A stretch of 37,284 nt of DNA from Bacteroidales bacterium (lineage in GTDB: Bacteria; Bacteroidota; Bacteroidia; Bacteroidales; F082): contig JAGCPJ010000056.1 in assembly GCA_017965765.1 (NCBI GenBank), positions 1 through 37,284 of the forward strand, written 5' to 3'. Within the stretch, counting starts at the first letter, position 1; every line of letters begins with the position of its first letter. Made by a program: the position numbers and the translations under genes. Below, piece by piece: positions 1-34,245 of the stretch. Below the pieces are notes generated by a model, which worked only from the letters and a program-made list of their open reading frames with translations, did not search any database and was not told where the DNA came from.

Positions 1-51
1 CGTCATGCCATTAAATCGGCAAAATTACAAAAATATTGTTTACCTTAAATG

Positions 52-91
52 AAAAAAGCAGGGACGCATTCGAATGCGTCCCTGCTTTTTT
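52..91. terminator. Bidirectional hairpin terminator / REP-like palindrome
   Basis: A perfect self-complementary stem (58-85) is flanked by A6 on the left and T6 on the right, so it can act as an intrinsic terminator on either strand. Its GGGACGC...GCGTCCC sequence resembles the palindrome at 37042-37075 (GAGACG...CGTCTC), so it may be a dispersed extragenic palindrome. It sits just upstream of the M23 gene promoter. Confidence 0.6.
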
Positions 92-115
92 CATTTAAGG
101 TAAACAATATTTTTG

Positions 116-123
116 TAATTTTG
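116..123 (+). promoter_or_regulatory. TAnnTTTG promoter for the M23 gene
   Basis: TAATTTTG matches the Bacteroidota -7 element TAnnTTTG. It ends 13 nt before the ATG at 137. Confidence 0.6.
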
Positions 124-136
124 CCGATTTAATGGC

Positions 137-1075
137 ATGACGATGGCTGAAGGAAAAGGCGAAAAAGACGGCAAGCGACGTTGGTGGCAACGGATTTCGT
201 TCAAGAAATTGAACCGGAAATACGTTTTCCTCATGTCACATGAGGAGACCATGGAACCCATTGTGGATTTCAGGGTCAACTTGATGAACATCATCATCAT
301 AGCCATCGCCTCCATCGTGTTTCTCATCGCCATCACCACCCTCATCATCGCCTTCACACCGCTGAGGGAATACATCCCGGGCTATACCGACACCTCCCTG
401 AAACGTGAGCTCTACACGCTCAACCGCAGGGCCGATTCCATTGAGCAAGATCTTCGTCGCAAAGACGTCTATTTCAACAACTTGAAACTCGTCATTGAAG
501 GCTATGAGCTCGACCACGACAGTATGGGGACCCATGACATCTACACGCCGATGGCAACGTTCGACATCGACACGATAGCCCTCAGGAGATCTGCCCAAGA
601 CAGCGCCCTACGCGCCGAGTTCGAACGGGACAACATGTATAACCTTCCCGAAACCGACGCTTTCATCAAAACCACGTTGCATCCCGAAGCCGCCAAGTTC
701 TTCACCCCCATCACGGGCAGGGTCATCTTGCCTTACGACCCCACCCATGGCCATTATGGCATCGACATCGCCTCCACGGAGAACCAGGTGATCAAGGCCA
801 CCTTGGACGGTACGGTCATCTATTCCTCTTGGACATTAGACTTTGGCTATACTATTGGCATTCAACATAATAACAACTATTTCTCTACCTATAAACACAA
901 TGCGACCCTGTTGAAGAAGGAAGGAGACTTTGTGAAAGCAGGCGAAGCCATTGCCATCGTCGGCGAGTCAGGCGAGCAAGTCACAGGTCAACATCTGCAC
1001 TTTGAGTTATGGCACAATGGCGTGTCAGTGAACCCACAGGAGTACATCAATTTTGAGAAGGGAGAGGGAGAGTGA
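137..1075 (+). CDS. M23 family metallopeptidase (LytM domain), membrane-anchored
   Basis: The 312-residue protein has a short cytoplasmic N-terminus, one hydrophobic membrane segment (about 51-73), a probable coiled or linker region (85-190) and a C-terminal LytM/M23 domain (190-305). The zinc-site motifs are intact: H206 and D210 in HYGID, and HLH at 286-288; the YKH around 254 matches the other conserved histidine. The family cleaves peptide cross-links in peptidoglycan, so the domain should work in the periplasm. The start could be ATG 137 (MTMAEG) or ATG 143 (MAEG); there is no ribosome-binding sequence to decide. It lies 58 bp before rseP, with a heptamer tract beginning at its stop codon. 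The family is clear; the exact substrate bond is unknown. Confidence 0.9.
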   Translation: MTMAEGKGEKDGKRRWWQRISFKKLNRKYVFLMSHEETMEPIVDFRVNLMNIIIIAIASIVFLIAITTLIIAFTPLREYIPGYTDTSLKRELYTLNRRADSIEQDLRRKDVYFNNLKLVIEGYELDHDSMGTHDIYTPMATFDIDTIALRRSAQDSALRAEFERDNMYNLPETDAFIKTTLHPEAAKFFTPITGRVILPYDPTHGHYGIDIASTENQVIKATLDGTVIYSSWTLDFGYTIGIQHNNNYFSTYKHNATLLKKEGDFVKAGEAIAIVGESGEQVTGQHLHFELWHNGVSVNPQEYINFEKGEGE

Positions 1076-1122
1076 GAAACGGAAAACGGAGAACGGAAAA
1101 CGGAAAACGGAAAACGGAAAAC
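1074..1122 (+). repeat. Heptamer tract A, (GGAAAAC)n
   Basis: There are seven consecutive 7-bp units: GAGAAAC, GGAAAAC, GGAGAAC, then four GGAAAAC. The first unit overlaps the TGA stop of the M23 gene. The tract fills most of the M23-rseP gap. It is one of nine related heptamer tracts in the window. Confidence 0.95.
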
Positions 1123-1133
1123 TAACATAATCT

Positions 1134-2609
1134 ATGGTTATATTCATTAAAGTATTACAGTTTTTTTTGGCGCTGTCCATCCTGATTTTTGTGCATGAAT
1201 TGGGGCATTTTTTAGCTGCAAAGGCGTTTAAGGTGCGGGTGGACAAATTCTATTTGTTTTTTGACTGGGGTTTTTCATTGCTGAAGGTGAAACGCGTCAA
1301 CGGCAAGCTCCGTTGGAAGTTCTTCTCCAAGCCGACCCCCGAAAAATACACCGTGGAAGAGAAGCGCAACGCAAAGGGAAAGAAGGAGATGGAGTACCAT
1401 CCCATCGATTTGAGCACCTTGCCTCCTGACGACTGGAGGCAAAGCGACTCCACGGAATACGGTATCGGATGGTTCCCGTTGGGTGGCTACAACAAGATCG
1501 CCGGCATGATCGACGAGTCGATGGACAAGGAGCAGATGAAGCAGCCCCCACAGTCTTGGGAATTCCGTTCCAAGCCCGCTTGGCAGCGTTTCATCATCAT
1601 GGTGGCCGGTGTGTTCATGAATGTGGTGCTCGCCATCACCATATACATCGGGTTACTCGCCTCCCAGGGAGAGCAATACCTGCCCACTGCGGAGGTCAAC
1701 AAATACGGTATCGCTGCCGACAGCTTGGCCAAAGAGTTCGGTTTGCGCGATGGTGACAAGATCATCAGTGTCAATGGCAAGAAGGTAGCCGATTTCCACC
1801 GGATCCAGATGGAGCTGATTTTGGAGAAAGCCTCTACCATCGAGGTGGAGCGCGACGGCCAACTGGTCGTCATCGAGTTGCCCGAAGATGCCATCAAGAA
1901 GCTGCTCCAGAAGCAGGACGCCAACTTCATCAGCTACCGCACGCCGTTCCTGGTCTCCGACTTCAGCGAGGGTTCCGTGGCGAAGAAGGCTGGCATGGAA
2001 GTGGGCGATGTCATCATTGCCATCAACGACATCCCGACGCCCTATTACCAAACCTTCGTCCAAGAGATCAAAGCCTTCAAGGATCAAGACATCACCGTCA
2101 GCGTTGTGCGCGATTTCGACACGCTGGCATTGGCCATGCACCTCCCCAAGGAAGGCGTCATTGGCGTTTATCTGGCACCTTTGAGTGAGTATTTCAACCT
2201 GGATACCAAAAACTACTCCTTCTGGCAGGCCATCCCGGCGGGGTTCTCCAAGACCTTCACCGAGATTTCCGACTACTGGAAGCAGCTGAAGCTGATTTTC
2301 AACCCCAGCACCAAGGCCTACGAAAGCGTGGGCGGATTCATCTCCATCGGCAAGATCTTCCCCGACACTTGGATCTGGAGCATGTTTTGGAGACTCACCG
2401 CCTTCCTCTCCATTGCCTTGGCCGTGATGAACATCCTGCCCATCCCCGCCTTGGACGGCGGACACATCCTGTTCCTGCTTTATGAGATCATCTTCCGGAG
2501 GAAACCCAGCGACAAGTTCATGGAGATCGCCGAATATATCGGCTTGTTCCTGGTGCTGGCGCTGGTGATCTTCGCCAACGGCAACGACATAATCAAACTT
2601 TTCAGATGA
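1134..2609 (+). CDS. rseP: RseP-type site-2 protease (M50)
   Basis: This is a membrane-embedded zinc protease that cuts transmembrane segments of substrates such as anti-sigma factors. The 491-residue protein has the HExxH site HELGH (H21, E22, H25) in its first membrane helix and NILPIPALDGGH (433-444) near the C-terminus, which supplies the third ligand D441. Two PDZ-like modules lie between them, marked by GLRDGDKIISVNG and GMEVGDVIIAIND. A hydrophilic insertion of about 90 residues follows the first helix. It starts 11 bp after heptamer tract A and is probably co-transcribed with the M23 gene. No partner anti-sigma factor is nearby, so the substrate is unknown. Confidence 0.93.
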   Translation: MVIFIKVLQFFLALSILIFVHELGHFLAAKAFKVRVDKFYLFFDWGFSLLKVKRVNGKLRWKFFSKPTPEKYTVEEKRNAKGKKEMEYHPIDLSTLPPDDWRQSDSTEYGIGWFPLGGYNKIAGMIDESMDKEQMKQPPQSWEFRSKPAWQRFIIMVAGVFMNVVLAITIYIGLLASQGEQYLPTAEVNKYGIAADSLAKEFGLRDGDKIISVNGKKVADFHRIQMELILEKASTIEVERDGQLVVIELPEDAIKKLLQKQDANFISYRTPFLVSDFSEGSVAKKAGMEVGDVIIAINDIPTPYYQTFVQEIKAFKDQDITVSVVRDFDTLALAMHLPKEGVIGVYLAPLSEYFNLDTKNYSFWQAIPAGFSKTFTEISDYWKQLKLIFNPSTKAYESVGGFISIGKIFPDTWIWSMFWRLTAFLSIALAVMNILPIPALDGGHILFLLYEIIFRRKPSDKFMEIAEYIGLFLVLALVIFANGNDIIKLFR

Positions 2610-2638
2610 TATTTTCGTTGTAGCATTCAGATTTTTTG

Positions 2639-2646
2639 TAATTTAG
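2639..2646 (+). promoter_or_regulatory. Weak TAnnTTTG-like promoter for porP
   Basis: TAATTTAG after a T-rich run is one base off the TAnnTTTG element and lies 24 nt before the porP ATG. It is the only candidate promoter seen for the por operon. Confidence 0.35.
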
Positions 2647-2670
2647 CGGCTTGTTTCATACGCACTGTCC

Positions 2671-3636
2671 ATGACCAAGAAAATACATATCCTCCTCACG
2701 GCTTTCATTCTGGTGACGACCCTCACTGGGGTGAAGGCGCAGCAGGCCCCGATATTCACCAACTACAACAATTCATACACCTACATCAACCCTGGCTTTG
2801 CCGGTTTGAGCGAAGGTGTGAACGTGTTGGGATTGTACCGGCAGCAGTGGGCGGGCGGCTTCGTTGACCAGTCGGGCAACAGCCTCTCTCCGACCACTTA
2901 CCTGTTGACGGGTGACATGCCGCTCAGGGCCTTGGGAGGAGGCATCAGTTTCTCCATCATGAACGACCAATTGGGCTTTGAGAAGAACACGAACGTCGGG
3001 TTGGGCTATGCCTATCACCTGGACTTGGGAGGTTCCACCATCGGCATAGGAGTTTCAGGCACCCTGTTGAACCGCACCCTCGACTTCAGCCAGTTGGTCT
3101 CAGGCACTCCCAACGATCCGCTGATCTCCGGATTGAACGAAGAGAGTGGCATGTTGGTGGACCTGAGTGCCGGCATTTTCTGGCAGATTCCCGATTCGTT
3201 CTATCTCGGTGTCTCGGCCATCAACCTGTTCAACAGCACCACCCGTGCCCTTGGAGAGGAAGGCTCCGGAGCCAGTTTCACCACCGACAGGACGTTCTAT
3301 CTGGTGGCCGGTTATCCTTTCATGTTTGAAACGATGCCGACCTTCAAGTTCATCCCCTCCGTCAACTTCATGACGGACATCGCCTCTTGGCAAGTCAACG
3401 CCGGCATGAAAGTGGTCTATAACGACCTCTTCTCCCTGGGGGTCAACTACAGGCCCCAGGAATCCATCGGTTTGACGGTGGGACTTGCCATCAAGGACTT
3501 CGTGTTAGGGTATGCTTACGACATCAACACGATGGGATACCACATCCCCGGGTCGCACGAGATCGCCCTCAGCTATTGTTTCAAATTGGATTTGGACCGC
3601 ACTCCGAGAGACTATCGTAGTGTCAGATACTTGTAA
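2671..3636 (+). CDS. porP: PorP/SprF family T9SS outer-membrane protein
   Basis: The 321-residue protein has a clear signal peptide (about 1-23, cut after GVKA) followed by QQAPIFTNYNNSYTYINPGFAG, the typical start of PorP/SprF proteins. The rest alternates amphipathic strands with Gly/aromatic turns, as expected for an outer-membrane beta-barrel. The family is needed for type IX secretion and, in gliding species, adhesin secretion; PorP/SprF-like proteins associate with T9SS components and some client proteins. Its place directly before porKLMN matches the Porphyromonas gingivalis porPKLMN order and makes this the core-operon copy rather than a stray paralogue. The stop is about 100 bp from the preferred porK start. 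Confidence 0.9.
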   Translation: MTKKIHILLTAFILVTTLTGVKAQQAPIFTNYNNSYTYINPGFAGLSEGVNVLGLYRQQWAGGFVDQSGNSLSPTTYLLTGDMPLRALGGGISFSIMNDQLGFEKNTNVGLGYAYHLDLGGSTIGIGVSGTLLNRTLDFSQLVSGTPNDPLISGLNEESGMLVDLSAGIFWQIPDSFYLGVSAINLFNSTTRALGEEGSGASFTTDRTFYLVAGYPFMFETMPTFKFIPSVNFMTDIASWQVNAGMKVVYNDLFSLGVNYRPQESIGLTVGLAIKDFVLGYAYDINTMGYHIPGSHEIALSYCFKLDLDRTPRDYRSVRYL

Positions 3637-3741
3637 AAAGATGAAAAAATATCCATTTCATACAATAAATTTCGCTTTTATTGGTTATTTGGAAAGGACT
3701 TGAACATTTTGAAGATATACAACTATATGATTATCAAGAAG

Positions 3742-5151
3742 ATGAAAAAATTACTGTTTGTTTTTTCCGTAGCAATCCTGCTGGCATCCTGTGGCCGTGG
3801 CAATCAAGGAGAGTTGGTTGGTGTACGCAAGTCGAAGACCAACTTCAGCCAACCAGACCCATACGGCATGGTATTCATCCCGATGGGCAGCTATACCATG
3901 GGTGTGGGAGGTGAAGACATCAACTCCTCCATGCTTTACGAGCCCAAGACCGTTTCGGTGTCAGCTTTTTATATGGATGAGACGGAAATCACCAATAACG
4001 AGTACAGGCAGTTCGTTTATTGGGTAAGGGACTCCATTGCGAGAAGGTATTTGGCCGAGATCAACCCGGACGATTATGCCATTTCGGAGACCAAGAAGGG
4101 TGAACCTTTGGATCCGCCGATGTTGAACTGGAAGAAGAAGATCGACTGGAACAGCAAGGATCAGGATGTCAGGGAGGCCTTGGAGCCCATGTACCTGCAA
4201 GAGCACGAGCGATATTTCCGCGCCAAGGAGATCGACACCAGAAAGTTGTACTATTCCTACTACTGGGTTGACCTGAAGGCTGCGGCCAAGAAGGAATATG
4301 AAGGCGAAGACCTGACCCCGAACGACTATTCTTTGGGCGAGGCCGACAACGGCATCACTGCCAACAGGAAGGGTGCTTGGGCCAACCGTAAGCAAGGCTA
4401 TACCGACCGTTCCGTGTATGTCCGTCAGGAGGCCATCAACGTGTATCCCGACACCTTGTGCTGGATTCACGACTACGCCTATTCCTTCAATGACCCGATG
4501 ACCGAGAAGTATTTCTGGCATCAGGCCTACGACAACTACCCGGTGGTGGGTGTCACTTGGCAGCAGGCCAGGGCATTCTGCACTTGGAGAACCCAGCTGA
4601 AGAACTCTTTCCTGAAGTCTAAGAAAGACGCTCTGGTTTCCGAGTACAGGCTCCCCACCGAAACCGAATGGGAATGGGCTGCCCGTGGTGGCGACCGTCT
4701 GAACCCCTATCCTTGGGGCGGTCCCAACACCAGAAACGTGAAGGGTTGCTTCCTGGCCAACTTCAAGCCTTTGAGAGGCAACTACTTGGCTGATGGTGGT
4801 TTGACGACACTCATCGTGGGCTGCTATCCGCCCAACCACTATGGTCTGTACGACATGGCCGGCAACGTGGCAGAGTGGACCAACAGTGCCTTCGACCCGA
4901 CTTCCTACAACTTCACTTGGGATATGAACCCCGACTACACCTACAACGCCAATGACGACGATCCGCCCGTCATGAAGCGCAAGGTCATCCGCGGCGGTTC
5001 ATGGAAGGACATCGCCTACTACATCCAGGTGACCACCCGCGACTACGAGTACCAGGACACTGCCAGAAGCTACATCGGCTTCCGCACCGTGCAGCCTTTC
5101 ATGGGCCGCAACAAGGGCGACAACCGCAAGATGTCGAGAGTCTATAGATAA
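3742..5151 (+). CDS. porK: PorK/GldK T9SS ring lipoprotein
   Basis: PorK and PorN form the large periplasmic ring under the outer membrane in T9SS. I chose ATG 3742 (MKKLLFVFSVAILLASCG) because it gives a compact lipoprotein signal with lipidated Cys17; in-frame ATGs at 3700 and 3727 would add a non-signal-like extension. The 469-residue protein has a sulfatase-modifying-factor (FGE-like) fold, seen in GMVFIPMGSYTMG (42-54), VTWQQARAFC (271-280), RLPTETEWEWAARGG (303-317), YGLYDMAGNVAEWT (367-380), VIRGGSW (415-421) and the terminal GFRTV. This domain is used as a structural scaffold here. A heptamer tract follows the stop directly, then porL. Confidence 0.93.
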   Translation: MKKLLFVFSVAILLASCGRGNQGELVGVRKSKTNFSQPDPYGMVFIPMGSYTMGVGGEDINSSMLYEPKTVSVSAFYMDETEITNNEYRQFVYWVRDSIARRYLAEINPDDYAISETKKGEPLDPPMLNWKKKIDWNSKDQDVREALEPMYLQEHERYFRAKEIDTRKLYYSYYWVDLKAAAKKEYEGEDLTPNDYSLGEADNGITANRKGAWANRKQGYTDRSVYVRQEAINVYPDTLCWIHDYAYSFNDPMTEKYFWHQAYDNYPVVGVTWQQARAFCTWRTQLKNSFLKSKKDALVSEYRLPTETEWEWAARGGDRLNPYPWGGPNTRNVKGCFLANFKPLRGNYLADGGLTTLIVGCYPPNHYGLYDMAGNVAEWTNSAFDPTSYNFTWDMNPDYTYNANDDDPPVMKRKVIRGGSWKDIAYYIQVTTRDYEYQDTARSYIGFRTVQPFMGRNKGDNRKMSRVYR

Positions 5152-5179
5152 ATGCGGAATGCGGAATTAAGAATTAATC
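5152..5179 (+). repeat. Heptamer tract H, ATGCGGA/ATTAAGA units
   Basis: Starting at the base after the porK TAA are ATGCGGA, ATGCGGA, ATTAAGA and ATTAATC. This is a short, decayed member of the window's 7-bp repeat class, at the porK-porL junction. Confidence 0.6.
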
Positions 5180-5225
5180 GATTAATAAAATAACTAGAAA
5201 ACATTCATTTTAGAACATTTTTGTC

Positions 5226-5987
5226 ATGGCAAAAAAACAAGAAAATCTTTCAGGATTTAAAAAATTTCAGGCTCTTACCCAGACCAAGAATTACAAGACC
5301 TTCATGGGTTATGTTTACGGTTTCGGTGCATCCATCGTGATGATTGGTGCATATTTCAAATTGACGCACATCCCTGGCGCCGACTTCATGTTGGGTCTCG
5401 GTTTGGGTGTGGAAGCTTTGATTTTCTTCCTGTCAGCTTTTGAACCGCAACATTTGGAATACCAGTGGGACAATGTCTTCGTTGAGCTTGAGGAGGACTG
5501 GGACGGTGAGACCCGCACCAAGTTCGGCACCACCAGCCAGGCTGTCGGAGGCAACTTCAACACTCCCGAGATGAACGAGGCCATGTCTAATGCCATGGCA
5601 GCCACCAACGGCTATGTCAAGGCCATGGAGCATGCTACAAAGAGCATCAGCGATTTCGCCAACAACTACACCAAGACCAATGAAGAGCTGAGCGCTTCGC
5701 TCAACAGGCTTGACTTCAGCGCCCTCGACACCAGCACCTTGAAGAAAGTCGCCACCAGCATGCAGTCGCTGAACTCCATCTACGAGATCCAACTCCAAAG
5801 CATGGAACAGACCTCCACTGCCTCCAGCAAGCTCGCAGCCACCATGACCAGCTATATGGACAACCTCAACGCTTCCGCCAACAACGCCAACGAACTCAAC
5901 AAGCAACTGACCCAGCTTTCGAACCGTTTGAGCGCCTTGAACAACGTCTATGGCGGCATGTTGTCAGCCATGAACATCAAGGCATAA
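5226..5987 (+). CDS. porL: PorL/GldL T9SS motor protein
   Basis: PorL is the inner-membrane stator-like subunit that, with PorM, converts proton flow into mechanical work for type IX secretion. The 253-residue protein has two membrane helices (about 27-46 and 53-72). The second carries E63 in GVEALIFF, the position of the functionally important membrane glutamate described for GldL, and E73 in SAFEP ten residues later. A long cytoplasmic C-terminus (80-253), rich in Ser/Asn/Ala and coiled-coil-like, follows. It lies between porK and porM in the usual order. Confidence 0.93.
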   Translation: MAKKQENLSGFKKFQALTQTKNYKTFMGYVYGFGASIVMIGAYFKLTHIPGADFMLGLGLGVEALIFFLSAFEPQHLEYQWDNVFVELEEDWDGETRTKFGTTSQAVGGNFNTPEMNEAMSNAMAATNGYVKAMEHATKSISDFANNYTKTNEELSASLNRLDFSALDTSTLKKVATSMQSLNSIYEIQLQSMEQTSTASSKLAATMTSYMDNLNASANNANELNKQLTQLSNRLSALNNVYGGMLSAMNIKA

Positions 5988-6027
5988 ATCGACTCAATTC
6001 AATCACTAAGGAAAGGAGTACGAAACC

Positions 6028-7758
6028 ATGGCAGGAGCAAAAGAAACCCCGAGACAGAAAATGATCGGCATGATGTACCTCGTGTACACAGCCCTTCTCG
6101 CCATGAATGTCTCGAAAGACATCCTCGATGCATTCGACACCGTGAATACTGGTGTACAGGATACCAACATCACCCTGATGCAGCAGATTTCACAGAAATA
6201 TGCCACCTTCGAGGAACAATATGCGTTGGACCAAGAGAAAGTGGGACCCTATTGGGAGCAAGCCCAAGAGCTGAGAACCAAGTCCACCGACCTCATCAAC
6301 TACCTTGAAGCGTTGAAATGGGACCTGGTGTCGTCCATCGAGAACAAAGACTATGCTAAAGCTATTGATGAAGGATTGTTGAAAAACAAGGATACCCTCC
6401 AATACAACGGCCGTCTGCTGTATAACATCAACACCTCGAAGATCAAGTCGAGAGACAACTACAACAAGCCCACCGCTTATATGATGGGCGACCCGGAAGG
6501 TCCGGGCAACGGAGGCAAAGCCTACGAGCTTTCCGAGAAGATCCGGGAATATCGCGGCGAGATTGTCGGCATCATGGGTCCAGAACACATCCATGAACTG
6601 GGACTTATCACCGACAGCATCTACGGCTCGAAAGACTACGTCATGCAGCAAACCGGACATAGCGAAAGCAGCTTGAAGAAACTTCCTTTGGAAGGCGAGT
6701 ATTACGGTGCCAAGATCAGCTATTATCCTGGGGTTACCGACCCGGTGCAGGACAGTTGGGAGTATCGTAACTTCCATCATACCGTGTTGATTGCCGACGT
6801 CACCTTGCTCAACAAGATCATCTCCGAGGTGGAGACCGCCGAGTTGAACGCCGTGACCCATCTGGCCCAATCCGTCCACGCCGAAGACTTCACCTTCGAC
6901 GAGGTTGGCGCCAAGGTGTTTGCCGAGAGCAGCTACATCCTCTCCGGCCAGAAATACCGCGCTCAGGCCATGGTGACCGCTTGGCAAAACACGCAAACCA
7001 CCGCCCGGGTCCGTTTTGACGGCGGTCCGGAAAAGGAATACGCCAGCAACAGCCAGGGCGTGATCGACCTGGAATACAACGTGGGCGTGGGTACACACAG
7101 ATACACTGGTGTCATCCCGATGCTCAACCCCAAGACCAACGAGATCGAGGACTACCCGTTTGAGGGTTCCTTCACCGTGGCACCTCCAGCGGTGAGCGTG
7201 GCGGCCACCAAGATGAACGTAGTGTATGCCGGTATCGACAACCCGATCGCCATTGGCGGCGGCGTGGGCGGCGAGATTTCCGCCACAGCCACAGGCGCCA
7301 CCCTATCGCGTACAGGTAACGGCACGTATAACCTCCGCGTCAACGGCGGAGCCAACGAAGTAGTGGTCCACGTCAGCTCACAAGGCAGTTCGATGGGTAG
7401 CATGAAGTTCCGTGTGAAGGAACTGCCCAAGCCGACTGCCAAGATCGATAACGTAAGTTCTGACGGCAAAGTCACCAAGGGCGCCCTGCTCGCTGCCAAC
7501 ATGGTGAGAGCTGAGATGAAAGACTTCGACTTCGAAGGTGTCCACTACGATGTGACCGGCTATACCGTGAAATACAGGACCAAGGCTGGCACCACGAAAG
7601 AAGAGAAGGTCACCGGTTCGAGGTTCAACGAGACCTTGAAGAGCGTGTTCAACTCCGCTAACGCAGGCGACATCTACGTGTTCACCGCCATCCGCGTGCG
7701 AGGCAACGACAACAAGGAGAAAGTACTTGATTCGCAAATCGCTGTAGAAATCAAATAA
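6028..7758 (+). CDS. porM: PorM/GldM T9SS motor and periplasmic shaft protein
   Basis: PorM has one N-terminal membrane helix that packs against PorL and a long periplasmic arm reaching the PorK/N ring. The conserved GldM start is present: RQKMIGMMYLVYTALLAMNVSKDILDAF (about 9-36). A helical domain (40-270) and beta-rich Ig-like domains rich in Gly, Val and Pro (275-576) follow. At 576 residues it appears somewhat longer than the roughly 515-residue forms I know from P. gingivalis and Flavobacterium, and the extra length is not localised here. The start at 6028 is 40 bp after porL. Confidence 0.93.
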   Translation: MAGAKETPRQKMIGMMYLVYTALLAMNVSKDILDAFDTVNTGVQDTNITLMQQISQKYATFEEQYALDQEKVGPYWEQAQELRTKSTDLINYLEALKWDLVSSIENKDYAKAIDEGLLKNKDTLQYNGRLLYNINTSKIKSRDNYNKPTAYMMGDPEGPGNGGKAYELSEKIREYRGEIVGIMGPEHIHELGLITDSIYGSKDYVMQQTGHSESSLKKLPLEGEYYGAKISYYPGVTDPVQDSWEYRNFHHTVLIADVTLLNKIISEVETAELNAVTHLAQSVHAEDFTFDEVGAKVFAESSYILSGQKYRAQAMVTAWQNTQTTARVRFDGGPEKEYASNSQGVIDLEYNVGVGTHRYTGVIPMLNPKTNEIEDYPFEGSFTVAPPAVSVAATKMNVVYAGIDNPIAIGGGVGGEISATATGATLSRTGNGTYNLRVNGGANEVVVHVSSQGSSMGSMKFRVKELPKPTAKIDNVSSDGKVTKGALLAANMVRAEMKDFDFEGVHYDVTGYTVKYRTKAGTTKEEKVTGSRFNETLKSVFNSANAGDIYVFTAIRVRGNDNKEKVLDSQIAVEIK

Positions 7759-7782
7759 GACAACAACTAAATACCATAGAAG

Positions 7783-8628
7783 ATGAAAAAAACGCTTGTT
7801 TCAACATTGGCAACCGCAATGCTCTTCGGCATGGTGCTGAGCGTGAGTGCCCAGACCACCGAGGCAAAGCCGCCCAAGAACGGCATCCTTTCGAAGCGTC
7901 AGGAGATCCAGGTCGAGAAGAAACTCTCGCCCCTTCCGGAAATTCGTGAGGAATATGTAATGTGGAAGAAGACCATCATCCGCGAGATAGACTTCCGTCA
8001 GAAGATCAACCAAGTGTTCTACTACCCTGTCAACCCCACCGAAGACTGGCGCAACCTCGCCACTGTGCTGTATGACGGCATCTTGAGTGGTGACATCACT
8101 GCGTATCGTGTGGAGAACAACATCGACGACATGGTCACGCCTTTGACGAGGGATGACTTCGAGAAGGAGAACACCAAGATCGGAGACCCGCCGGTCATCA
8201 TGAGAGACGGCGTGGAAGTCGCCAACGAGATCTCTTTCAAGGACCGTATGGTCAACGTCTCCCGTCTGAGAATCAAGGAAGACTGGTACTTCGACAACCA
8301 CCTGTCGCAGTTCCTGGTGCGCATCATCGCCTTGGGACCCATCATCGTCGATGAGGACGGTCTTTCGCAGGCCTGCTGGATTCCTTACGACGACCAGACC
8401 CGCAAGGTGCTTTCCGAGGCTTTTGTAGCCAACCGCAAGAACGGTGCTGAACGCCGCACCTACGAGGAGATCCTCACCAAGCGTGTGTTCGACAGCTACA
8501 TCGTCAAGGAAGAGAACATGTACGACCGCTACATCAACTCCTATGCTTTGAACATCGACGCCCTCTTTGAGTCGGAGCGCATCAAGAACGAGATGTTCGA
8601 CTATGAGCAGAGTTTGTGGGAGTATTAA
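7783..8628 (+). CDS. porN: PorN/GldN T9SS ring protein
   Basis: PorN is the periplasmic partner of the PorK lipoprotein. The 281-residue protein starts with a cleavable signal peptide (about 1-23, ending VSA) and continues into the GldN family region, with recognisable DVMWKKTIIREIDFRQKINQ-like text (around 60-78 here as EEYVMWKKTIIREIDFR), NWRNLATVLYDGI-like sequence and the acidic C-terminus ending YEQSLWEY. It is 24 bp after porM and is the last gene of the operon: a heptamer tract and a terminator hairpin follow. Confidence 0.92.
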   Translation: MKKTLVSTLATAMLFGMVLSVSAQTTEAKPPKNGILSKRQEIQVEKKLSPLPEIREEYVMWKKTIIREIDFRQKINQVFYYPVNPTEDWRNLATVLYDGILSGDITAYRVENNIDDMVTPLTRDDFEKENTKIGDPPVIMRDGVEVANEISFKDRMVNVSRLRIKEDWYFDNHLSQFLVRIIALGPIIVDEDGLSQACWIPYDDQTRKVLSEAFVANRKNGAERRTYEEILTKRVFDSYIVKEENMYDRYINSYALNIDALFESERIKNEMFDYEQSLWEY

Positions 8629-8632
8629 AATA

Positions 8633-8674
8633 AGAAGTCAGAAGACAGAAGAAAGAAGAAAGAAGAAAGAATCC
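8633..8674 (+). repeat. Heptamer tract G, (AGAAGAN)n
   Basis: The units are AGAAGTC, AGAAGAC, three AGAAGAA and AGAATCC. They begin 4 nt after the porN TAA and run into the first arm of the terminator stem. Confidence 0.9.
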
Positions 8675-8698
8675 CGTCAGCGATGGCGGGATTTTTTT
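8672..8698 (+). terminator. Intrinsic terminator of the por operon
   Basis: Stem TCCCGTC (8672-8678) pairs with GGCGGGA (8685-8691) through one G-U wobble, with a 6-nt loop. Seven T residues (8692-8698) follow. The last T is also the first base of the promoter element for the next gene. Confidence 0.8.
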
Positions 8699-8705
8699 AT
8701 CTTTG
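8698..8705 (+). promoter_or_regulatory. TAnnTTTG promoter of the EamA transporter
   Basis: TATCTTTG ends 5 nt before ATG 8711, so the transcript should be leaderless or nearly so. Confidence 0.7.
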
Positions 8706-8710
8706 CGCCC

Positions 8711-9622
8711 ATGAAAAACCGTTCGAAACTGATAGGGCACCTCAGCGTATTCTTTGCCTACACCATCTTCGGATTCAACATTATCATCTGCAAAGAGCTG
8801 ACCAACGCACATCTGGTCAGCTCTTTGGGTTTGTTTTGCTTCCGGTCGGTGGGGGCCTGTCTCCTGTTTTGGCTCATCTCGCTGTTTCTCCCCAAGGAGA
8901 AGGTGCCGTTCAAGGACCTCTGCGGCATCTTCATCGCTTCCATGCTGGGTTTCTTCCTCACCCAACTCTCCTATCTCGAATCCAGCAAGTTCACCACACC
9001 CCTCGACACCTCCATCATCACCTCCACCACCCCTATCTTCACCATGTTTATCGCCGCCATCGCCCTCAAGGAACCCATCACCTTGAAGAAAGCTGGAGGC
9101 GTAACCCTCAGCTTTGCAGGTGTCATCCTTCTGGTTCTCAACACCATCGGCGTCAACGGCAACGGCATCACCCAGTCCAAACCCATCGGCATCCTGCTGA
9201 TGATCGGCAACTGCCTGTTCTTCGCCTCCTACCTTGGCATCTTCAGGCCGCTTATCTCTAAATACCATGTGGTCACCTTCATGAAGTGGATCTTCCTCTT
9301 CTCCACCCTTGTGGCCGTGCCGCTCGACATCAAGGAATTGACGCATTTGCCCTTGGCAGAGATGAGCACCAGCTATTGGCTGCAACTGGGCTACATCATC
9401 GTCTTCGCCACCTTCATCGCCTATTTCCTGCTTCCCATCGGACAGAAACAGCTCCGTCCCACCGTGGTCAGCCTTTACACCTACGTACAGCCTTTGATCG
9501 GCATGGTAACCGCTATTGTTTTAGGTATGGACCGGTTGACCTGGCAGAAGATTTTAGCTGCAATTATGGTATTCACGGGCGCTTTCCTTGTCAACAAAAG
9601 CCGTAGCCGTCAAGGGCAGTAG
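8711..9622 (+). CDS. EamA/DMT family inner-membrane transporter
   Basis: The 303-residue protein is almost entirely hydrophobic, with about ten membrane helices in two similar halves. It starts with SVFFAYTIFGFNIIICK, contains SSKFTTPLDTSIITSTTPIFTMFIAAI and KKAGGVTLSFAGVILL in the first half, and ends with the second-half signature LRPTVVSLYTYVQPLIGMVTAIVLG. This is the drug/metabolite transporter superfamily, which exports or imports small metabolites; the substrate cannot be read from sequence. The open frame extends to 8567, but that would overlap porN and cross the terminator; ATG 8711 sits right behind a good promoter and gives the normal family length. Confidence 0.88.
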   Translation: MKNRSKLIGHLSVFFAYTIFGFNIIICKELTNAHLVSSLGLFCFRSVGACLLFWLISLFLPKEKVPFKDLCGIFIASMLGFFLTQLSYLESSKFTTPLDTSIITSTTPIFTMFIAAIALKEPITLKKAGGVTLSFAGVILLVLNTIGVNGNGITQSKPIGILLMIGNCLFFASYLGIFRPLISKYHVVTFMKWIFLFSTLVAVPLDIKELTHLPLAEMSTSYWLQLGYIIVFATFIAYFLLPIGQKQLRPTVVSLYTYVQPLIGMVTAIVLGMDRLTWQKILAAIMVFTGAFLVNKSRSRQGQ

Positions 9623-9690
9623 CATCCGAAGGATGCTAGCTCTGTAACCAGGACTCTTGTTACAGAGCTATCATCCGCCTTTGGCGGATG
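9621..9690. repeat. Three adjacent hairpins (extragenic palindromes)
   Basis: Hairpin 1 is AGCATCC/GGATGCT (9621-9637). Hairpin 2 has a perfect 12-bp stem, TAGCTCTGTAAC (9637-9648) with GTTACAGAGCTA (9659-9670). Hairpin 3 is CATCCGCC/GGCGGATG (9672-9690) with a TTT loop. The first overlaps the transporter stop codon. They probably end or protect the transporter mRNA; no strong U-run follows until 9713. Confidence 0.7.
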
Positions 9691-9737
9691 TCCTGTCCGT
9701 TACTACACAATCACTTTTTTCACGTCACTTTTTTTAC

Positions 9738-9745
9738 TATCTTTG
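9738..9745 (+). promoter_or_regulatory. TAnnTTTG promoter of recG
   Basis: TATCTTTG ends 5 nt before ATG 9751, implying a leaderless or near-leaderless recG mRNA. Confidence 0.7.
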
Positions 9746-9750
9746 CGGGG

Positions 9751-11856
9751 ATGGAAGTCAACTTGTTGCATACCAACATCAGCTACCTGAAAGGCGTTGG
9801 GCCGAAGAAGGCAGAGATCCTGGGCAAAGAGCTCAAGGTGTTCACCTTCATGGACATGCTCAACCAGTTCCCTTTTCGGTATATCGACAAAAGCCAGATC
9901 CACAAGGTGGCGCAAGTGAACGACGACTTGGTGTATTACCAACTCATCGGTACCATTGGCGATGTGCAACTTGTAGGGGCACCAAGAGCCAGCCGGGCCA
10001 CCGCCAGGTTCACTGACGAAACAGGCTCCATCGAACTCGTGTTTTTCCGTGGCCTAAAATGGATCAAGGATCGCTTCAAGCCTGGCAAACGGTATGTGCT
10101 TTTCGGCAAGGCCAGCGAGTTCAACCACAACTACAACTTCGTCCATCCCGAGATCGAGGAATACAACCCCAACGACCCCCTCATCGGAGAGGGGCTGCAA
10201 GGCGTGTATAACACCACTGAAAAGATGAAGGACCACGGTCTAGGTACCCGACAGATTGCCAAGATGCAACGTCAAATCCTCCAGCAGGTGATGGATTATA
10301 TCCCAGAGACCCTACCACAGGAGCTGATGCATCGGGAGAACCTCATCCCTCGGAAATACGCCTACTACCAGATCCATATCCCCTCCAACAATATCGAGAT
10401 ACAGCAGGCCACGCGACGCTTGAAATACGAGGAGCATCTCTTTTTCCAGCTCAAGCTGCTGCGTGCCAAGAAACGCCGCGAGAGCCTCAACCAAGGCTAT
10501 GTGTTCAGCCAGGTGGGCGACTATTTCAACACGTTTTATAAGGAGCACCTACCCTTCCCGCTCACCAATGCCCAAAAGCGTGTCATCCGTGAAATCCGTA
10601 TCGACCTCGGCAGTGGGCACCAGATGAACCGCCTGCTACAAGGCGACGTGGGCAGCTGCAAGACCATCGTTGCCCTTATGGTGATGCTGCTGGCCTTGGA
10701 TAACGGCTACCAGGCCTGCTTGATGGCCCCTACGGAGATCTTGGCCACCCAGCACTTTGCCACGCTCAAGGAACAGCTCAAGGACTTGCCTGTGAAGTTC
10801 GCCCTGCTCACCGGTTCCACCAAGACCAAGGAACGCCGCGAGATCTATAGCGGACTGGAGGACGGCACCATGCAGATCATCGTGGGTACCCACGCCCTCA
10901 TCGAGGAAAAGGTGGTTTTCAAGAAACTGGGACTGGCCATCATCGATGAACAGCACCGCTTCGGCGTGGCGCAACGCTCCAAGTTCTGGGAAAAGACCGA
11001 CCGCCCACCGCACACACTGGTGATGACGGCCACCCCCATCCCCCGCACCTTGGCCATGACCCAATACGGTGACCTCGACGTGTCGAAAATCGACGAGTTG
11101 CCTCCTGGCAGAAAACCCGTGGAGACCTACCACGTTTATGATGACGACCGCTACCGCATCATGATGTTCATGAAGCAGCAGATCGCCAAAGGACGACAGA
11201 TCTACGTGGTCTATCCCTTGATCAAGGAATCGGAGAAAACCGACATGATCGCCTTGCAAGAGGGTTATGAGGCATTGCTGAGGGACTTCCCCGAGCCGGA
11301 ATACAAGATCTCCGTATGTCACGGCCAGCTGAAGCCCGAGGACAAGGACTTCGAGATGCAACGTTTCATCACCAAGAACACCCAGATCATGGTAGCCACC
11401 ACCGTCATCGAGGTGGGGGTGAACGTACCCAATGCCAGCGTGATGATCATCGAGAACGCCAACAGGTTCGGCCTCTCGCAGCTACACCAGCTGCGAGGCC
11501 GTGTTGGACGCGGCGCCGACCAGTCCTATTGCATCCTGGTCACCGACCACAAGCTCACCGCCGACGGCAAGACCCGCATGAAGACCATGTGCAGCACCAG
11601 CGACGGCTTTCAGATCGCCGAAGTGGATCTGGAACTCCGTGGTCCTGGCGAGACGGGCGGCCTCAGACAGTCAGGGCAAATCGAGATGCTCATCGGCGAT
11701 TTGCAAAAAGACGGGACTCTGATTCCCCAGGTGCGCGATGCCGCCATCCGTATTTTGAACGACGACCCAAAACTCATCAAACCGGAGAACAGGATGCTCC
11801 GAGAACACTATAAGGAGCTGTTTGCTCAGACGTTCGACTGGAGCCAGATCGGGTAG
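9751..11856 (+). CDS. recG: ATP-dependent DNA helicase RecG
   Basis: RecG remodels stalled replication forks and recombination junctions. The 701-residue protein has the N-terminal wedge/OB region (1-270), with YLKGVGPKKAEIL at the start, then helicase motifs: motif I GDVGSCKT (298-305), APTEILATQH, DEQH (399-402), TATPIPRTLAM, and C-terminal LRGRVGRGADQSYC. Motif I has Cys303 (codon TGC at 10657-10659) where the Walker A consensus has Gly. The rest of the protein is full length and well conserved, so this is unlikely to be a decayed gene. ATG 9751 was chosen over the upstream ATG 9688 because the promoter lies between them and the family N-terminus begins at MEVNLLHT. Confidence 0.95.
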   Translation: MEVNLLHTNISYLKGVGPKKAEILGKELKVFTFMDMLNQFPFRYIDKSQIHKVAQVNDDLVYYQLIGTIGDVQLVGAPRASRATARFTDETGSIELVFFRGLKWIKDRFKPGKRYVLFGKASEFNHNYNFVHPEIEEYNPNDPLIGEGLQGVYNTTEKMKDHGLGTRQIAKMQRQILQQVMDYIPETLPQELMHRENLIPRKYAYYQIHIPSNNIEIQQATRRLKYEEHLFFQLKLLRAKKRRESLNQGYVFSQVGDYFNTFYKEHLPFPLTNAQKRVIREIRIDLGSGHQMNRLLQGDVGSCKTIVALMVMLLALDNGYQACLMAPTEILATQHFATLKEQLKDLPVKFALLTGSTKTKERREIYSGLEDGTMQIIVGTHALIEEKVVFKKLGLAIIDEQHRFGVAQRSKFWEKTDRPPHTLVMTATPIPRTLAMTQYGDLDVSKIDELPPGRKPVETYHVYDDDRYRIMMFMKQQIAKGRQIYVVYPLIKESEKTDMIALQEGYEALLRDFPEPEYKISVCHGQLKPEDKDFEMQRFITKNTQIMVATTVIEVGVNVPNASVMIIENANRFGLSQLHQLRGRVGRGADQSYCILVTDHKLTADGKTRMKTMCSTSDGFQIAEVDLELRGPGETGGLRQSGQIEMLIGDLQKDGTLIPQVRDAAIRILNDDPKLIKPENRMLREHYKELFAQTFDWSQIG

Positions 11857-11866
11857 AAATGAAATA

Positions 11867-11911
11867 ATTTTATTTCAAATAGTTTTATTTCAAATAATTT
11901 TATTACATTTG
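11867..11911 (+). repeat. Three copies of a 15-bp AT-rich repeat
   Basis: ATTTTATTTCAAATA (11867-11881), GTTTTATTTCAAATA (11882-11896) and a diverged copy, ATTTTATTACATTTG (11897-11911). The third copy ends in the promoter element TACATTTG. Confidence 0.9.
11904..11911 (+). promoter_or_regulatory. TAnnTTTG promoter of the AAA ATPase gene
   Basis: TACATTTG lies in the third copy of the 15-bp repeat and ends 14 nt before ATG 11926. Confidence 0.6.
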
Positions 11912-11925
11912 CAAAAAACTGTGAT

Positions 11926-13068
11926 ATGAACATTCCATTTACCTACGGCAAAATTGTCGATGAGCTTGATTTTACTGATAGATTGGAAGAAACCGCACAT
12001 TTGGTTTCCTGTTTCCAATCGCTAACCAACACGGCCATCATCTCCCCAAGACGTTGGGGAAAGTCCTCGTTGGTGGCAAAAGCCGTAAAGGAAACCGAAC
12101 ACAAACAGAAAGATATTTTGTTCGTTCGCATGAACATTTTCAAATGCGAAAACCCACAGGAGTTCTATGAGCTCTATGCCAAAAGAATTATGGAAGAGGT
12201 CTCTTCGTCGGCTGAATCCCTGCTAGCAAACGCCAAGGAGTTCATTTCCCGATTACTTCCCAAGCTTTCTCTTTCAGACCCTTTGGGACAATACGAAATC
12301 GCTTTGGGAGTAAATGTCAAAGACAATCCAATCGAAGAGGACATTCTGGATTTGCCACAGCAAATTGCCGCCAAGAAAAAAAAGAAAGTTGTCGTTTGCA
12401 TCGATGAGTTTCAACAAATCGGAGAATTCCCTGACACTGTAAAATTTCAAAAAATCCTAAGAAACCATTGGCAGGAGCACAAAGATGTCGCTTATATTCT
12501 TTATGGCAGCAAAAAACACATGATGCTGAATATTTTCGGAAAAAACAGCAGCCCGTTCTATCGGTTTGGCGATATGATGTCTATCGAGAAGATCACCAAT
12601 GAAGAATGGAAAAAATTCATTGTTACCCGATTCAAGGACACTGGGAAAACCATCACGGCGGAAACAGCTGGATACTTAGCCGAACAAGTTGAGAATCATC
12701 CCTATTATGTTCAGCAACTCGCCCAATATGCTTGGCTTCGCACCAAGAAAACTTGTACAGAAGAGATTGTGGACAATGCTTTGCTGGCCATGTTGTATTC
12801 TCTTAATCTCCAGTTTGTCAACCTCATGGACTCGCTCACTGAAAAGCAACGAAATTTCCTTTGTGCCATTAGTGAAGGGGTTAAAAACTTGACCTCCGGG
12901 AAAACGCTTCATCAATACCGAATGGGAACCAGCGCAAACATTCGCATCATCAAAAACGCCTTACTGAAACGCGACCTCATCGATGTCACGGGAAAAAACA
13001 TCCAGATACAAGATCCTCTTTTGAAACGGTGGATTATTGAAGAGTATTCTAGAATAGATAAAAGTTAA
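11926..13068 (+). CDS. AAA/STAND-like ATPase of the archaeal-type ATPase family
   Basis: The 380-residue protein opens with [22 protein letters not shown], typical of PF01637-type ATPases. Walker A is SPRRWGKSS (40-48) and Walker B is VVVCIDEF (155-162). [11 protein letters not shown] follows as a sensor region, and the C-terminal third looks like a winged helix ([19 protein letters not shown] onward). These soluble ATPases are widespread in Bacteroidota and archaea and mostly uncharacterised; some act in stress or defence settings. It is visibly more AT-rich than its neighbours and has its own promoter, which suggests later acquisition. Its stop overlaps the stop of the converging rfaE2-like gene, and its last codons lie in a heptamer tract. 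Confidence 0.82.
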
Positions 13069-13090
13069 GAGATAAAAGACAAAAGTTTGG
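13056..13090. repeat. Heptamer tract I across two converging stop codons
   Basis: The units are AGATAAA, AGTTAAG, AGATAAA, AGACAAA and AGTTTGG. The second unit contains both stop codons, TAA of the ATPase (13066-13068) and the reverse-strand TAA of the rfaE2-like gene (13065-13067). The repeat therefore encodes the last residues of both proteins. Confidence 0.65.
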
Positions 13091-13574
13091 TCGTGGAATA
13101 ACCCTCCACCAGAGGCACCGTCTCCACTTTGCCGCCGTAGGAGGTGACGATGTCGTAACCGACAATTTCTTCGACTTTGTAATCGGCACCTTTGACCAAG
13201 ACATCGGGATGGACGGCCTTGATCAGTTCGTAGGGCGTGTCCTCATCAAACAGCACCACGGCATCCACAAAGCTTAGCGAGGCGAGCACCAAGGCACGGG
13301 CTTCCTCGTTATTCACAGGTCGCCCCTCCCCTTTCAACCTTCTCACAGACGCATCGGTGTTCAATCCCACCACCAACACATCACCCATATCGGCAGCTTT
13401 CGCGAGGTATTCGATGTGGCCGCGATGAAGAATGTCGAAACAGCCGTTGGTGAAAACCACCTTTAACCCTTGGGAGTGGAAAACGGAAAGTGGAAAACGG
13501 AAAGTTTTCTGTTCTCCGTTTTCCGTTCTCCGTTCATAATAGATTTTATTCTTGATCAGCTGAAGGTTGTCCAT
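13065..13574 (-). CDS. rfaE2: RfaE2-like heptose-1-phosphate adenylyltransferase
   Basis: The 169-residue nucleotidyltransferase has [15 protein letters not shown] (39-53) with the HxGH site H50/G52/H53, then [19 protein letters not shown] and the late [10 protein letters not shown]. This matches the adenylyltransferase half of HldE/RfaE, which makes ADP-D-glycero-beta-D-manno-heptose for LPS inner core or other glycans. Residues about 14-35 are not family sequence: they are the translation of heptamer tract B ([21 protein letters not shown]) in place of the usual N-terminal helix linker. The gene overlaps the gtrA-like stop by 29 bp and ends the long minus-strand operon. The family also contains other cytidylyl/adenylyltransferases, so the substrate is inferred. 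Confidence 0.85.
13476..13535. repeat. Heptamer tract B, inverted pair, inside rfaE2
   Basis: On the plus strand, GGAAAAC/GGAAAGT units run to about 13505 and are followed by their reverse complement (CTCCGTT/TTCCGTT units) to 13535. The tract can fold into an imperfect hairpin. It is read in frame as residues about 14-33 of the rfaE2-like protein. Confidence 0.9.
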
Positions 13575-14091
13575 GGTCGGTTTTGTTTTTCTTGAAAGCG
13601 TAGAACTTGTTTGTTAAATAACTGAAAGTCACACAGATAATGGATATGATGACATAGGAAACCGTCGGCCACCAATGGAAGATCTCCACAAAGAGCTTCA
13701 GACCTAGGTAGTTGATCACGATGTTACCGATGGTGACCAGCAGATAGCGCACGATTTGGGTCCTTCCCCGCAAGGTGGAACCTGCAAAGCTGATATGCCG
13801 TGCCATCCAGAAACCCGTCAGGAAGGTGATGGGGAACTTGAAGACAAAAGCGGCGATATGCGGCGTGAAAGCAATGAATCCCAGGTCGAAGATCCTAGCA
13901 TGGAAGACGAAGTGGTAGAACACATAGTAAAGCACCCATTCCAAGGCCAGGTTCAGTCCACCGCAGCAGCCATAGCGGAACAATTCCAAAGGCATGATCT
14001 TCCGGAAGGGAGGATAGAAGAAGTCGATGACCTTGATCAACAGGCGTTCTATACGGTATTCTATGTGGCGAATGGCTCTTTTCACACCCAA
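13546..14091 (-). CDS. GtrA family membrane protein
   Basis: The 181-residue protein has about four membrane helices. [22 protein letters not shown] starts the GtrA core, [15 protein letters not shown] lies in the middle, and [12 protein letters not shown] is the family's typical C-terminal text. GtrA-like proteins are thought to flip or help move polyprenyl-linked sugars across the inner membrane. The gene overlaps the mevalonate kinase stop by 10 bp and the rfaE2-like start by 29 bp, so the three are probably one transcript. A polyprenyl-glycan role would fit its place beside isoprenoid genes and a heptose-type nucleotidyltransferase, but that is inference. Confidence 0.82.
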
Positions 14092-18381: not shown

Positions 18382-18412
18382 AAGTTGAAAGTTGAAAGAT
18401 GAAAACTGAAAG
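18382..18412. repeat. Heptamer tract E, (AAGTTGA)n
   Basis: On the plus strand the units are AAGTTGA, AAGTTGA, AAGATGA and AAACTGA, followed by AAGTTA, whose TTA is the reverse-strand stop of the DUF2807 gene. The tract fills the gap between that stop and the HMG-CoA reductase ATG. Confidence 0.85.
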
Positions 18413-19264
18413 TTATTCTGGGTTGGGGTATTCGACGGCTTGAAGGATGGAGGTTTCGTCGCAATCGACGTTGAAGGTGGGATTGCCCGAGTAATATAGT
18501 TTAGAGACCTCGGAAACCGAGCCCTCGAGGGATTCCACGACGTTGACCGTGGCTTCAGAGAGGGCGTTGATGTCGATATGCATGCGGTTGATCCAACTGG
18601 TCGCCATGTTGAGGTGGCTATTCTCGGAGACTTTCGCCACGGCATGGTTGATTTCGCCAAAGTACTCTGTCATATAGGAAGCGTCATGGATATCCAAGTG
18701 CAGGTCGCCACTGACGTTCAGGCAGCCTTTGAAGATCGAGGCGTCAGCAAGTTCGAGCTGGCAGTCCGTTCCTTCAAAATAGAACTCGACACAGGTGGAA
18801 GCATCGCTCAGCTTGATGTCGGCGGTACCTTGGAAATGCCCGCCCCGGCATGAGGCAGCATCGTCAAGTTCCAGGGTCAACGCAGTTTCCATGTTCAGGT
18901 TGTCCAAGGCGGCAAAGGCGGCGTCCGAAAAACGAAGTGTGCGAACCATCGGGGTGTGCACGGTAGCGTTGATCACCGTGTTGTTCGGCAGGTTGTATTT
19001 CTTGTCAAGTCCAATGCTCAGCTTGGTTCCCGTCAGGTTCACGTCGAGATAATCCTCCAGGAAGGCGGAATATTCCAGCTCCACATACGATTTTTCTGCA
19101 TCCTGCAAAACCGTGACGCACCATGCGTCTTCCGCGGTAATCTCATCGTACTCCATCCCTTCAAACAGGACGGTTTGCCTCAGGGTCATGTCGAGGTCCT
19201 TGTCACGGCAGCCAGCGAGCACCAGCAATCCCAAGCAAACCCCAAAAACCAAATACTTCTTCAT
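18413..19264 (-). CDS. DUF2807 (head GIN domain) lipoprotein
   Basis: The 283-residue protein has a lipoprotein signal ending LVLAGC with Cys at about 19. The body is a run of short beta strands with recurring D-A-S/A turns (SDASTCVEFYFEG, ADASIFKG, HDASYMTE), typical of DUF2807, a right-handed beta-solenoid family of surface or periplasmic proteins with no firm function. It sits between rlmH and the HMG-CoA reductase gene with heptamer tracts on both sides. Its presence in the operon may be passive. Confidence 0.8.
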   Translation of the reverse strand: MKKYLVFGVCLGLLVLAGCRDKDLDMTLRQTVLFEGMEYDEITAEDAWCVTVLQDAEKSYVELEYSAFLEDYLDVNLTGTKLSIGLDKKYNLPNNTVINATVHTPMVRTLRFSDAAFAALDNLNMETALTLELDDAASCRGGHFQGTADIKLSDASTCVEFYFEGTDCQLELADASIFKGCLNVSGDLHLDIHDASYMTEYFGEINHAVAKVSENSHLNMATSWINRMHIDINALSEATVNVVESLEGSVSEVSKLYYSGNPTFNVDCDETSILQAVEYPNPE

Positions 19265-34216: not shown

Positions 34217-34245
34217 GGTCGGTTTTCTCAACGAGCAGCAACTCG

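Follow-up and report, generated by a model that had tools for sequence, protein, structure and literature searches.

Heptamer tracts in the window

We analysed a 37,284-bp stretch of DNA from a Bacteroidales bacterium (assembly GCA_017965765.1, contig JAGCPJ010000056.1, positions 1 to 37,284; hereafter the window), together with the short arrays of tandem 7-bp units that recur in it, most of them at the ends of genes. The window constitutes contig 54 of a 78-contig, 2.0-Mb genome with a completeness of 76%. A preliminary description had listed nine such tracts, and inspection of the sequence found all of them in place. Tandem Repeats Finder called eight of the nine, the degenerate tract at 13056-13090 being absent from its list, and its call at 5151-5167 amounts to only 2.4 exact copies. 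The single unit NGAARRY to which the tracts had been ascribed proved too simple, as the window holds several unit types (GGARAAC, AGAAGNC, AATGCGG, AGATAAA/AGTTAAG and TTGAAAG-like).

Genes were called with a simple custom script based on codon score and open reading frame (ORF) length, in which stops are safer than starts. For eight of the nine tracts, an ORF stop falls within the tract, at its edge or no more than 10 bp away; the ninth is intragenic. Seven of these eight are purine-rich in the sense of the gene to which the stop belongs; the tract at 18382-18412 is pyrimidine-rich in gene sense, contrary to the polarity rule that holds genome-wide (see below). Orthologous gene ends of the window genome (G000) were compared with those of seven relatives, which are referred to by number.

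The first tract (1074-1122, plus strand) is a purine-sense GGARAAC array containing the TGA stop of an M23 peptidase gene (137-1075). At this junction G022 has units of the GAATTAA type and G004 of the GTGAAAG type, and G009 and G019 have no array. A short AATGCGG array (5152-5179, plus strand) stands immediately 3' of the stop of ORF 3700-5151, which we take to be GldK-like. The unit after this gene is AATGCGG in the window genome, GGAAAAC in G022, AGAAGAC in G009, TTGAGAG in G019 and TTAAAAG-like in G091, and the gene end is without an array in G004, G012 and G085. The same spacer holds TTAATCGATTAAT (5174-5186), which five of the eight species shown have either in full or short of just its first letter, downstream of the array wherever the junction has one; it is possibly a regulatory site. 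Four base pairs past the stop of ORF 7783-8628, presumably GldN-like, lies an AGAAGNC/AGAAGAA array (8633-8674, plus strand). Different units occupy this junction in G022, G004, G019, G009 and G091, G085 has none, and G012 has GAGTGAG/GAGTTAA repeats below our threshold. The degenerate AGATAAA/AGTTAAG array at 13056-13090 (plus strand; called arm 13066-13085) contains the stop of ORF 11926-13068 and lies between convergent genes.

A purine-then-pyrimidine pair with GGARAAC and GGAAAGT arms (13476-13535, no strand assigned) lies 10 bp past the stop of ORF 13546-14091 (minus strand) and also within the N-terminal part of a cytidylyltransferase-like ORF (13065-13574, minus strand), the true start of which is uncertain. 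The corresponding place has a single GGARAAC array in G022 and a purine-then-pyrimidine sequence in G019; in G004 and G091 the arrays there are pyrimidine-sense. The TTGAAAG-like array at 18382-18412 (plus strand) is found between two minus-strand genes, in the sense of which it is pyrimidine-rich, and touches the stop of ORF 18413-19264. A purine-sense AGAAGAC array (19265-19289, minus strand) spans the entire gap from the stop of ORF 19290-19763 to the start of ORF 18413-19264, and a purine-sense GGARAAC array (33447-33477, minus strand) is directly 3' of the stop of ORF 33476-34231. The intragenic tract is a purine-then-pyrimidine pair with GGARAAC and GGAAGTG-like arms (34700-34776, no strand assigned) within an RNase H1 gene (34262-34939, minus strand), where it lies in the interdomain linker between the Pfam matches Cauli_VI (residues 4-46) and RNase_H (residues 81-184).

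A dispersed array family anchored at stop codons

Period counts were made on 437,284 bp, composed of the window and twenty 20-kb stretches of its genome, with one order-3 Markov shuffle as the control and with tract and arm thresholds of our own choosing. At period 7 there were 51 tandem tracts with a score of at least 14, and 20 with a score of at least 20, against none in the shuffle at either score. Other periods from 2 to 30 gave 0 to 6 tracts each, except for the multiples 14 (35 tracts), 21 (8) and 28 (3). Counted as arms, there were 90 in the real sequence and six in one Markov shuffle. Thus the period shared by the tracts is beyond chance, as the preliminary description had held.

Over 400 kb, GGARAAC made up 33 of 53 tracts, with AGAAGNC, GGAGTKA, GGAATNC, AAAAGNT and further units among the rest. 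Three tandem copies of this unit (GGARAACx3) gave 84+75 matches in the window genome and none for a reversed-letter control. The pattern was present in six of 80 relatives, all of the same genus, and in three of 395 Bacteroidota genomes, the window genome being counted in both cases and the other two Bacteroidota having one match each. The reversed control (a CAARAGG unit) has matches in some other Bacteroidota (G451, G466, G365 and G172, with a maximum of 8+19 in G451), so that other lineages have heptamer families of their own. The genus genomes besides that of the window were sampled in stretches, some picked around matches or synteny; among the genus members sampled the density ranged from 0 to 18 period-7 tracts per 100 kb, and some members had few or no arrays in 40 kb. 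The unit families extend past the window, and the tracts are real members of a dispersed, genome-wide family of heptamer arrays.

The association with stop codons was analysed for 107 intergenic arms from stretches of eight genus genomes, an arm being called stop-anchored if it begins between -12 and +10 bp of a stop. Of the 107 arms, 54 were stop-anchored with the purine strand in gene sense, against 15.7 ± 3.3 when position and orientation were randomised within the same gaps (0/5000), and eight were stop-anchored in the opposite (pyrimidine) sense. The link to stops that had been proposed from the window is thus confirmed and sharpened, and the arms are not spread evenly over intergenic DNA. 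The median distance from the stop was 1.5 bp to the purine 5' edge (94 cases) and 75 bp to the purine 3' edge (47 cases); at gene starts, the called positions of which are uncertain, the contrast was weak (42 versus 61.5 bp, p = 0.045). Arrays abut 47 of 548 tandem 3' ends versus 7 of 170 convergent 3' ends, and the distance from array to next start ranges from about 0 to more than 1000 bp.

Neighbouring arms kept a fixed order: among 37 pairs at most 60 bp apart, 23 were purine-pyrimidine, 14 were on the same strand and none was pyrimidine-purine. The arms of the inspected pairs consist of differing series of GGAAAAC and GGAGAAC and are not mirror copies, so that fold-back copying is an unlikely source of the palindromes. 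Purine-rich 3' flanks as seeds were rejected, the purine fraction in the first 30 bases past the stop being 0.51-0.53 for array-less genes. Such array-less gene ends show a slight 7-bp self-similarity (0.298-0.299 at lag 7 versus 0.286-0.296 at lags 6 and 8). Exact GGARAAC runs terminate unevenly with respect to phase at their 3' ends: phases 5-7, for which approximately 48% is expected, account for 30 of 41 runs in the window genome, 21 of 27 in G022 and 39 of 54 at other Bacteroidota loci. This unevenness may reflect a templated stop, which it fits, and other causes are possible.

A scan for four tandem copies (GGARAACx4) extended to other phyla and gave at least 115 loci, of which 108 were examined, seven RUG14679 loci being left out. 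The loci were selected by unit and so are no measure of prevalence; some perhaps belong to the genus of the window, and mis-binned contigs are possible. Among the matches listed, stop-anchored arms were purine-sense in 46 cases versus 11, and inverted pairs comprised 20 in purine-pyrimidine and five in the opposite order, three of these five in Endozoicomonas and Planctomycetota. Two Kiritimatiellaeota metagenome-assembled genomes (L082, L089-L091, L093, L098, L102, L115 and others) carry many GGARAAC arrays with near-fixed ends, mostly of the GGAGAAC form and some adjoining CGCCCC/GGGGCG palindromes.

Re-used places and changing units

Comparison between species separated the place of an array from its unit. 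A relative has a purine-sense array at 22 of the 56 gene ends where the window genome has one, versus 9 of 181 where it has none, and 34 of the 56 orthologous junctions are without an array in the relative. Unit likeness, defined as at most one mismatch in any rotation, was determined for 73 purine-sense stop arrays. The like-unit share was 0.376 across different junctions within one species (604 pairs), 0.164 when the junction was the same but the species differed (55 pairs) and 0.144 for the background of different junctions in different species (1969 pairs). Permutation gave 0/2000 for the effect of the genome on the unit and p = 0.76 for that of the junction. Arrays thus recur at the same places but have units characteristic of their genome, the units at recurring places being no more alike than background. 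Related species re-use many places, yet often with different heptamers, which suggests that units are drawn from a genome-wide source and do not arise by local growth; the result argues against local slippage as the source of the units, and for a trans source or concerted turnover. Together with the stop anchoring and strand polarity, the recurrence at orthologous junctions supports the earlier suggestion that some process generates heptamer arrays at gene ends or inserts them there. A literature search that included few subscription papers found no report of places re-used with the unit set by the genome.

Arrays are also found inside proteins: called genes contain 25 of the 70 array loci of the window genome, a few of these 25 at the end of the gene. 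One loop of a DcuC-type carrier has GGARAAC arms in the window genome, GGAAAAC in G022 and AGAAGAC in G004; G091 has two arms there, one AGAAGTC-like and one CTCCTCA. In a loop of a U32 peptidase (U32 a), the window genome and G091 both carry GGAGTTA, and the sequence of G022 and G004 is ordinary. For two further U32 loops (b and c) the unit is common to the window genome and G022, which also uses GGARAAC genome-wide, and one of these two carries GTGAAAG in G004. A loop at L043 14889 has a unit common to the window genome and G012. Protein loops thus show re-use of the place, and change of the unit only in part. A purine-sense bias inside genes, an early impression from the window genome, failed over eight genomes (38 versus 32 arms).

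Pieces resembling repetitive extragenic palindromes (REP) occupy similar tolerated places (L032 17961; L033 1958, 2844 and 6123; and, in G022, the junction corresponding to window 19265). One such piece, ending in ATGGGAGGTAAAAC, continues directly into GGARAAC units within MBOAT-like genes, and a second, with CACCCCATCGGGGTGCCACATCGG, is repeated in G022.

Repeats of other lengths are present in the window as well. A 15-bp repeat, AAATAATTTTATTTC (2.9 copies, 11862-11904), follows ORF 9688-11856; G019 and G085 have similar sequence at the corresponding position, so this repeat is more conserved than the heptamers. A 32-bp repeat, AAATTCGTTTAATTCGTTTAATTCGCCGTTAA (approximately 4.9 copies with 9-bp sub-units, 34954-35131), precedes ORF 35138-36259 and has a close copy past another gene (L032, just after 9305), representing a second dispersed family. 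A 126-bp repeat (3.1 copies with 63- and 30-bp sub-periods, 28218-28602) in ORF 27392-28768 encodes RRRFND/RRKFND-type repeats.

Origin of the arrays and relation to known repeats

We propose, as a serious possibility that falls somewhat short of being probable, that 7-bp arrays become dispersed over tolerated places, past stops and in protein loops, with units that would be supplied in trans, written on free 3' ends and rewritten over time. The units might come from other arrays copied during repair, or from a templating enzyme. The purine strand would be laid onto a free DNA 3' end at a tolerated place; a lone extended end would yield one array directed away from the gene, and two extended ends, then joined, would leave a purine-pyrimidine pair with unlike arms. 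Arrays would be replaced or rewritten with time, so that each genome would drift to its own units, and a benefit to the host would not be required. The proposal draws on the unit sharing within genomes, the re-used junctions and loops (the latter in part with other units), the strand polarity at stops, the fixed order and unlike series of paired arms, the ordinary purine content past array-less stops and the uneven phase of GGARAAC run ends. In a more specific form, to which we give only a small chance, a trans-acting heptamer writer would extend free 3' ends with purine-strand 7-mers in break or gap repair, and the heptamer arrays of Xanthomonas and Anabaena (see below) would stem from a process of the same kind, their G-quadruplex potential being incidental.

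Several results weigh against this proposal. Its weakest point is that the start of the array at the stop itself, and not farther along the free spacer, is left unexplained. No enzyme or template was found among the candidates examined (UG26 reverse transcriptase with its RNA, and Y1 transposases). Array carriers were a median of 16.5 bp longer than their empty orthologs, against a median array of 29.5 bp (86 pairs, wide scatter), so that pure insertion is unproven. Units are not always exchanged, as four of the 55 same-junction pairs share an identical unit class and several loops (U32 a, U32 b and c, L043 14889) keep their unit between species. The intragenic arms are without sense bias, five of the 25 inverted pairs listed among the matches in other phyla have the opposite arm order, and the GGARAAC runs of Kiritimatiellaeota prefer other phases, with phases 5-7 in 9 of 25. 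The species comparison covers stretches of each genome only.

Polymerase slippage from a local seed by the stop, with 7 bp as the favoured slip length, is an idea of Mrazek et al. (2007) as relayed in PMC4679880 and PMC4692102; the arrays would be retained because 3' flanks are free. The prominence of period 7 and the tandem units are in line with it, as are the stop codon often lying within the first unit (for example TGAAAGG or TAARAGN) and the trace of 7-bp similarity after the stops of genes without called arrays. However, slippage predicts neither the strand rule nor the fixed order of inverted arms, the unit tracks the genome and not the locus, and a single unit family accounts for 33 of the 53 tracts of 400 kb. 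We consider slippage rather unlikely.

The preliminary description had also raised a selected role. A purine-rich RNA with a 7-nt period past the stop would bind a protein, guard the mRNA 3' end or aid translation of the next gene; units would be free to change if only period, sense and place were under selection. This would agree with the 54 purine-sense versus eight pyrimidine-sense stop arms and with the re-use of junctions with changed units, and the higher rate at tandem (47 of 548) than at convergent 3' ends (7 of 170) leaves room for translational coupling. The same families, however, fill protein loops (25 of 70 loci intragenic in the window genome) with no preferred sense and abut the stops of convergent genes, and therefore a function at mRNA 3' ends or in coupling is not supported. 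The widely varying distance to the next start, the 34 of 56 array-less orthologous junctions and the genus members with few or no arrays also speak against a selected role, which is improbable in our view.

It is highly improbable that a resident UG26-type reverse transcriptase (RT) and its upstream RNA write the heptamers by a mechanism like that of telomerase or DRT10, the latter being described as carrying out telomerase-like tandem-repeat synthesis (PMC12632851). The UG26 RT was identified by a PADLOC model (E = 6.2e-161); of the 99 genus genomes listed, 24 have it, and an RVT_1 match was obtained in 7 of 12 genomes, including five of six GGARAAC carriers. Its gene, at L221 (G000:C67:30004-33627) and L227-L250, follows an RNA-like block with closing ends AAAAGGGGAUGC ... 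UCCCCUUUUU, which was aligned for 23 loci, approximately one-third of them having only its 3' part in the aligned piece. The upstream RNA is conserved and covarying, with two-sided changes in 10 of 23 predicted pairs (12 sequences). However, no heptamer template was seen in this RNA when read by eye, DRT10 itself not having been searched for by name, and several unrelated units occur within one genome. Of 18 genomes sampled, six were array-rich (more than 8 tracts per 100 kb) and 12 array-poor; the RT was present in five of the former and six of the latter, the array-rich G009 (84% complete) being without it. The RT thus does not follow array density, and it is unsupported as the writer.

That the arrays are parts or remains of REP-like elements moved by Y1 (HUH) transposases is scarcely credible: transposase genes occur in 12 of 13 genomes tested and some arrays are fused to a REP-like palindrome, but a heptamer arm lies near only three of ten transposase loci (17, 17 and 44 bp), array-poor G008, G010 and G012 carry the gene too, and many arrays are single and without a hairpin, leaving the transposase unsupported as the mover.

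Heptamer arrays at gene ends are known from distant bacteria, with slippage or G-quadruplexes as the proposed causes, and the short tandemly repeated repetitive (STRR) sequences of heterocystous cyanobacteria are intergenic heptamer arrays. The Rickettsia palindromic elements, which are longer, defined elements without heptamer structure, resemble the present arrays in being tolerated in frame within proteins. According to Rehm et al. (2015; PMC4692102), the GGGAATC arrays found in Xanthomonas and the GGGGA(C/T)T arrays found in Anabaena lie on the coding strand shortly past stops, which some of them overlap, and form convergent inverted pairs (70 and 75 cases); they are 89-93% intergenic and 7-11% in genes, and 83% of places kept the repeat between species. 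G-quadruplexes are discussed there, with function and origin left open. The arrays described here share with these the heptamer unit, dispersal over the genome, coding-strand placement past stops, convergent inverted pairs and places common to relatives. They are unlike them in that approximately a third of the loci are intragenic (25 of 70), several unit families occur per genome and the unit changes between species at one place, the comparison described there having sought the same repeat in both species. Read as sequence, the main units GGAAAAC and GGAGAAC contain no GGG and no G-quadruplex tract, unlike the GGGAATC type. Since the main unit is without G-tracts and the arrays are often intragenic, we place them among heptamer arrays in the broad sense and not with the GGGAATC type.

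The TAACTGA direct repeats described by MacGregor (2015; PMC4679880) occur in Beggiatoaceae, Cyanobacteria and some Bacteroidetes; in the main genome treated there, most of them immediately precede start codons. They too are intergenic and patchy heptamer arrays, with other heptamers nearby in some Bacteroidetes; there, however, one unit stands before starts, whereas here many other units stand mostly just past stops. Heptanucleotide long simple sequence repeats as a broad class, in which tandem 7-mers greatly exceed expectation (Mrazek et al., 2007, as represented in PMC4679880 and PMC4692102), include the present arrays (51 tracts versus 0), and to that survey of repeat counts, as it is represented there, place, polarity and unit turnover are added here. 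Taken together, the repeat family is real, well structured and of an already described kind, with its link to stops confirmed and the functional reading not supported.

As units follow the genome and places follow the gene, the origin of the arrays becomes testable, the question being what in a genome dictates the unit. A heptamer writer, if it exists, would be an enzyme equipped with a short template or with several of them, or one that uses existing arrays as its template, and permissive sites would be repeatedly rewritten in the current units of the genome, like a telomere repeat at internal sites. In-frame heptamers in protein loops provide a simple route to species-specific linkers.

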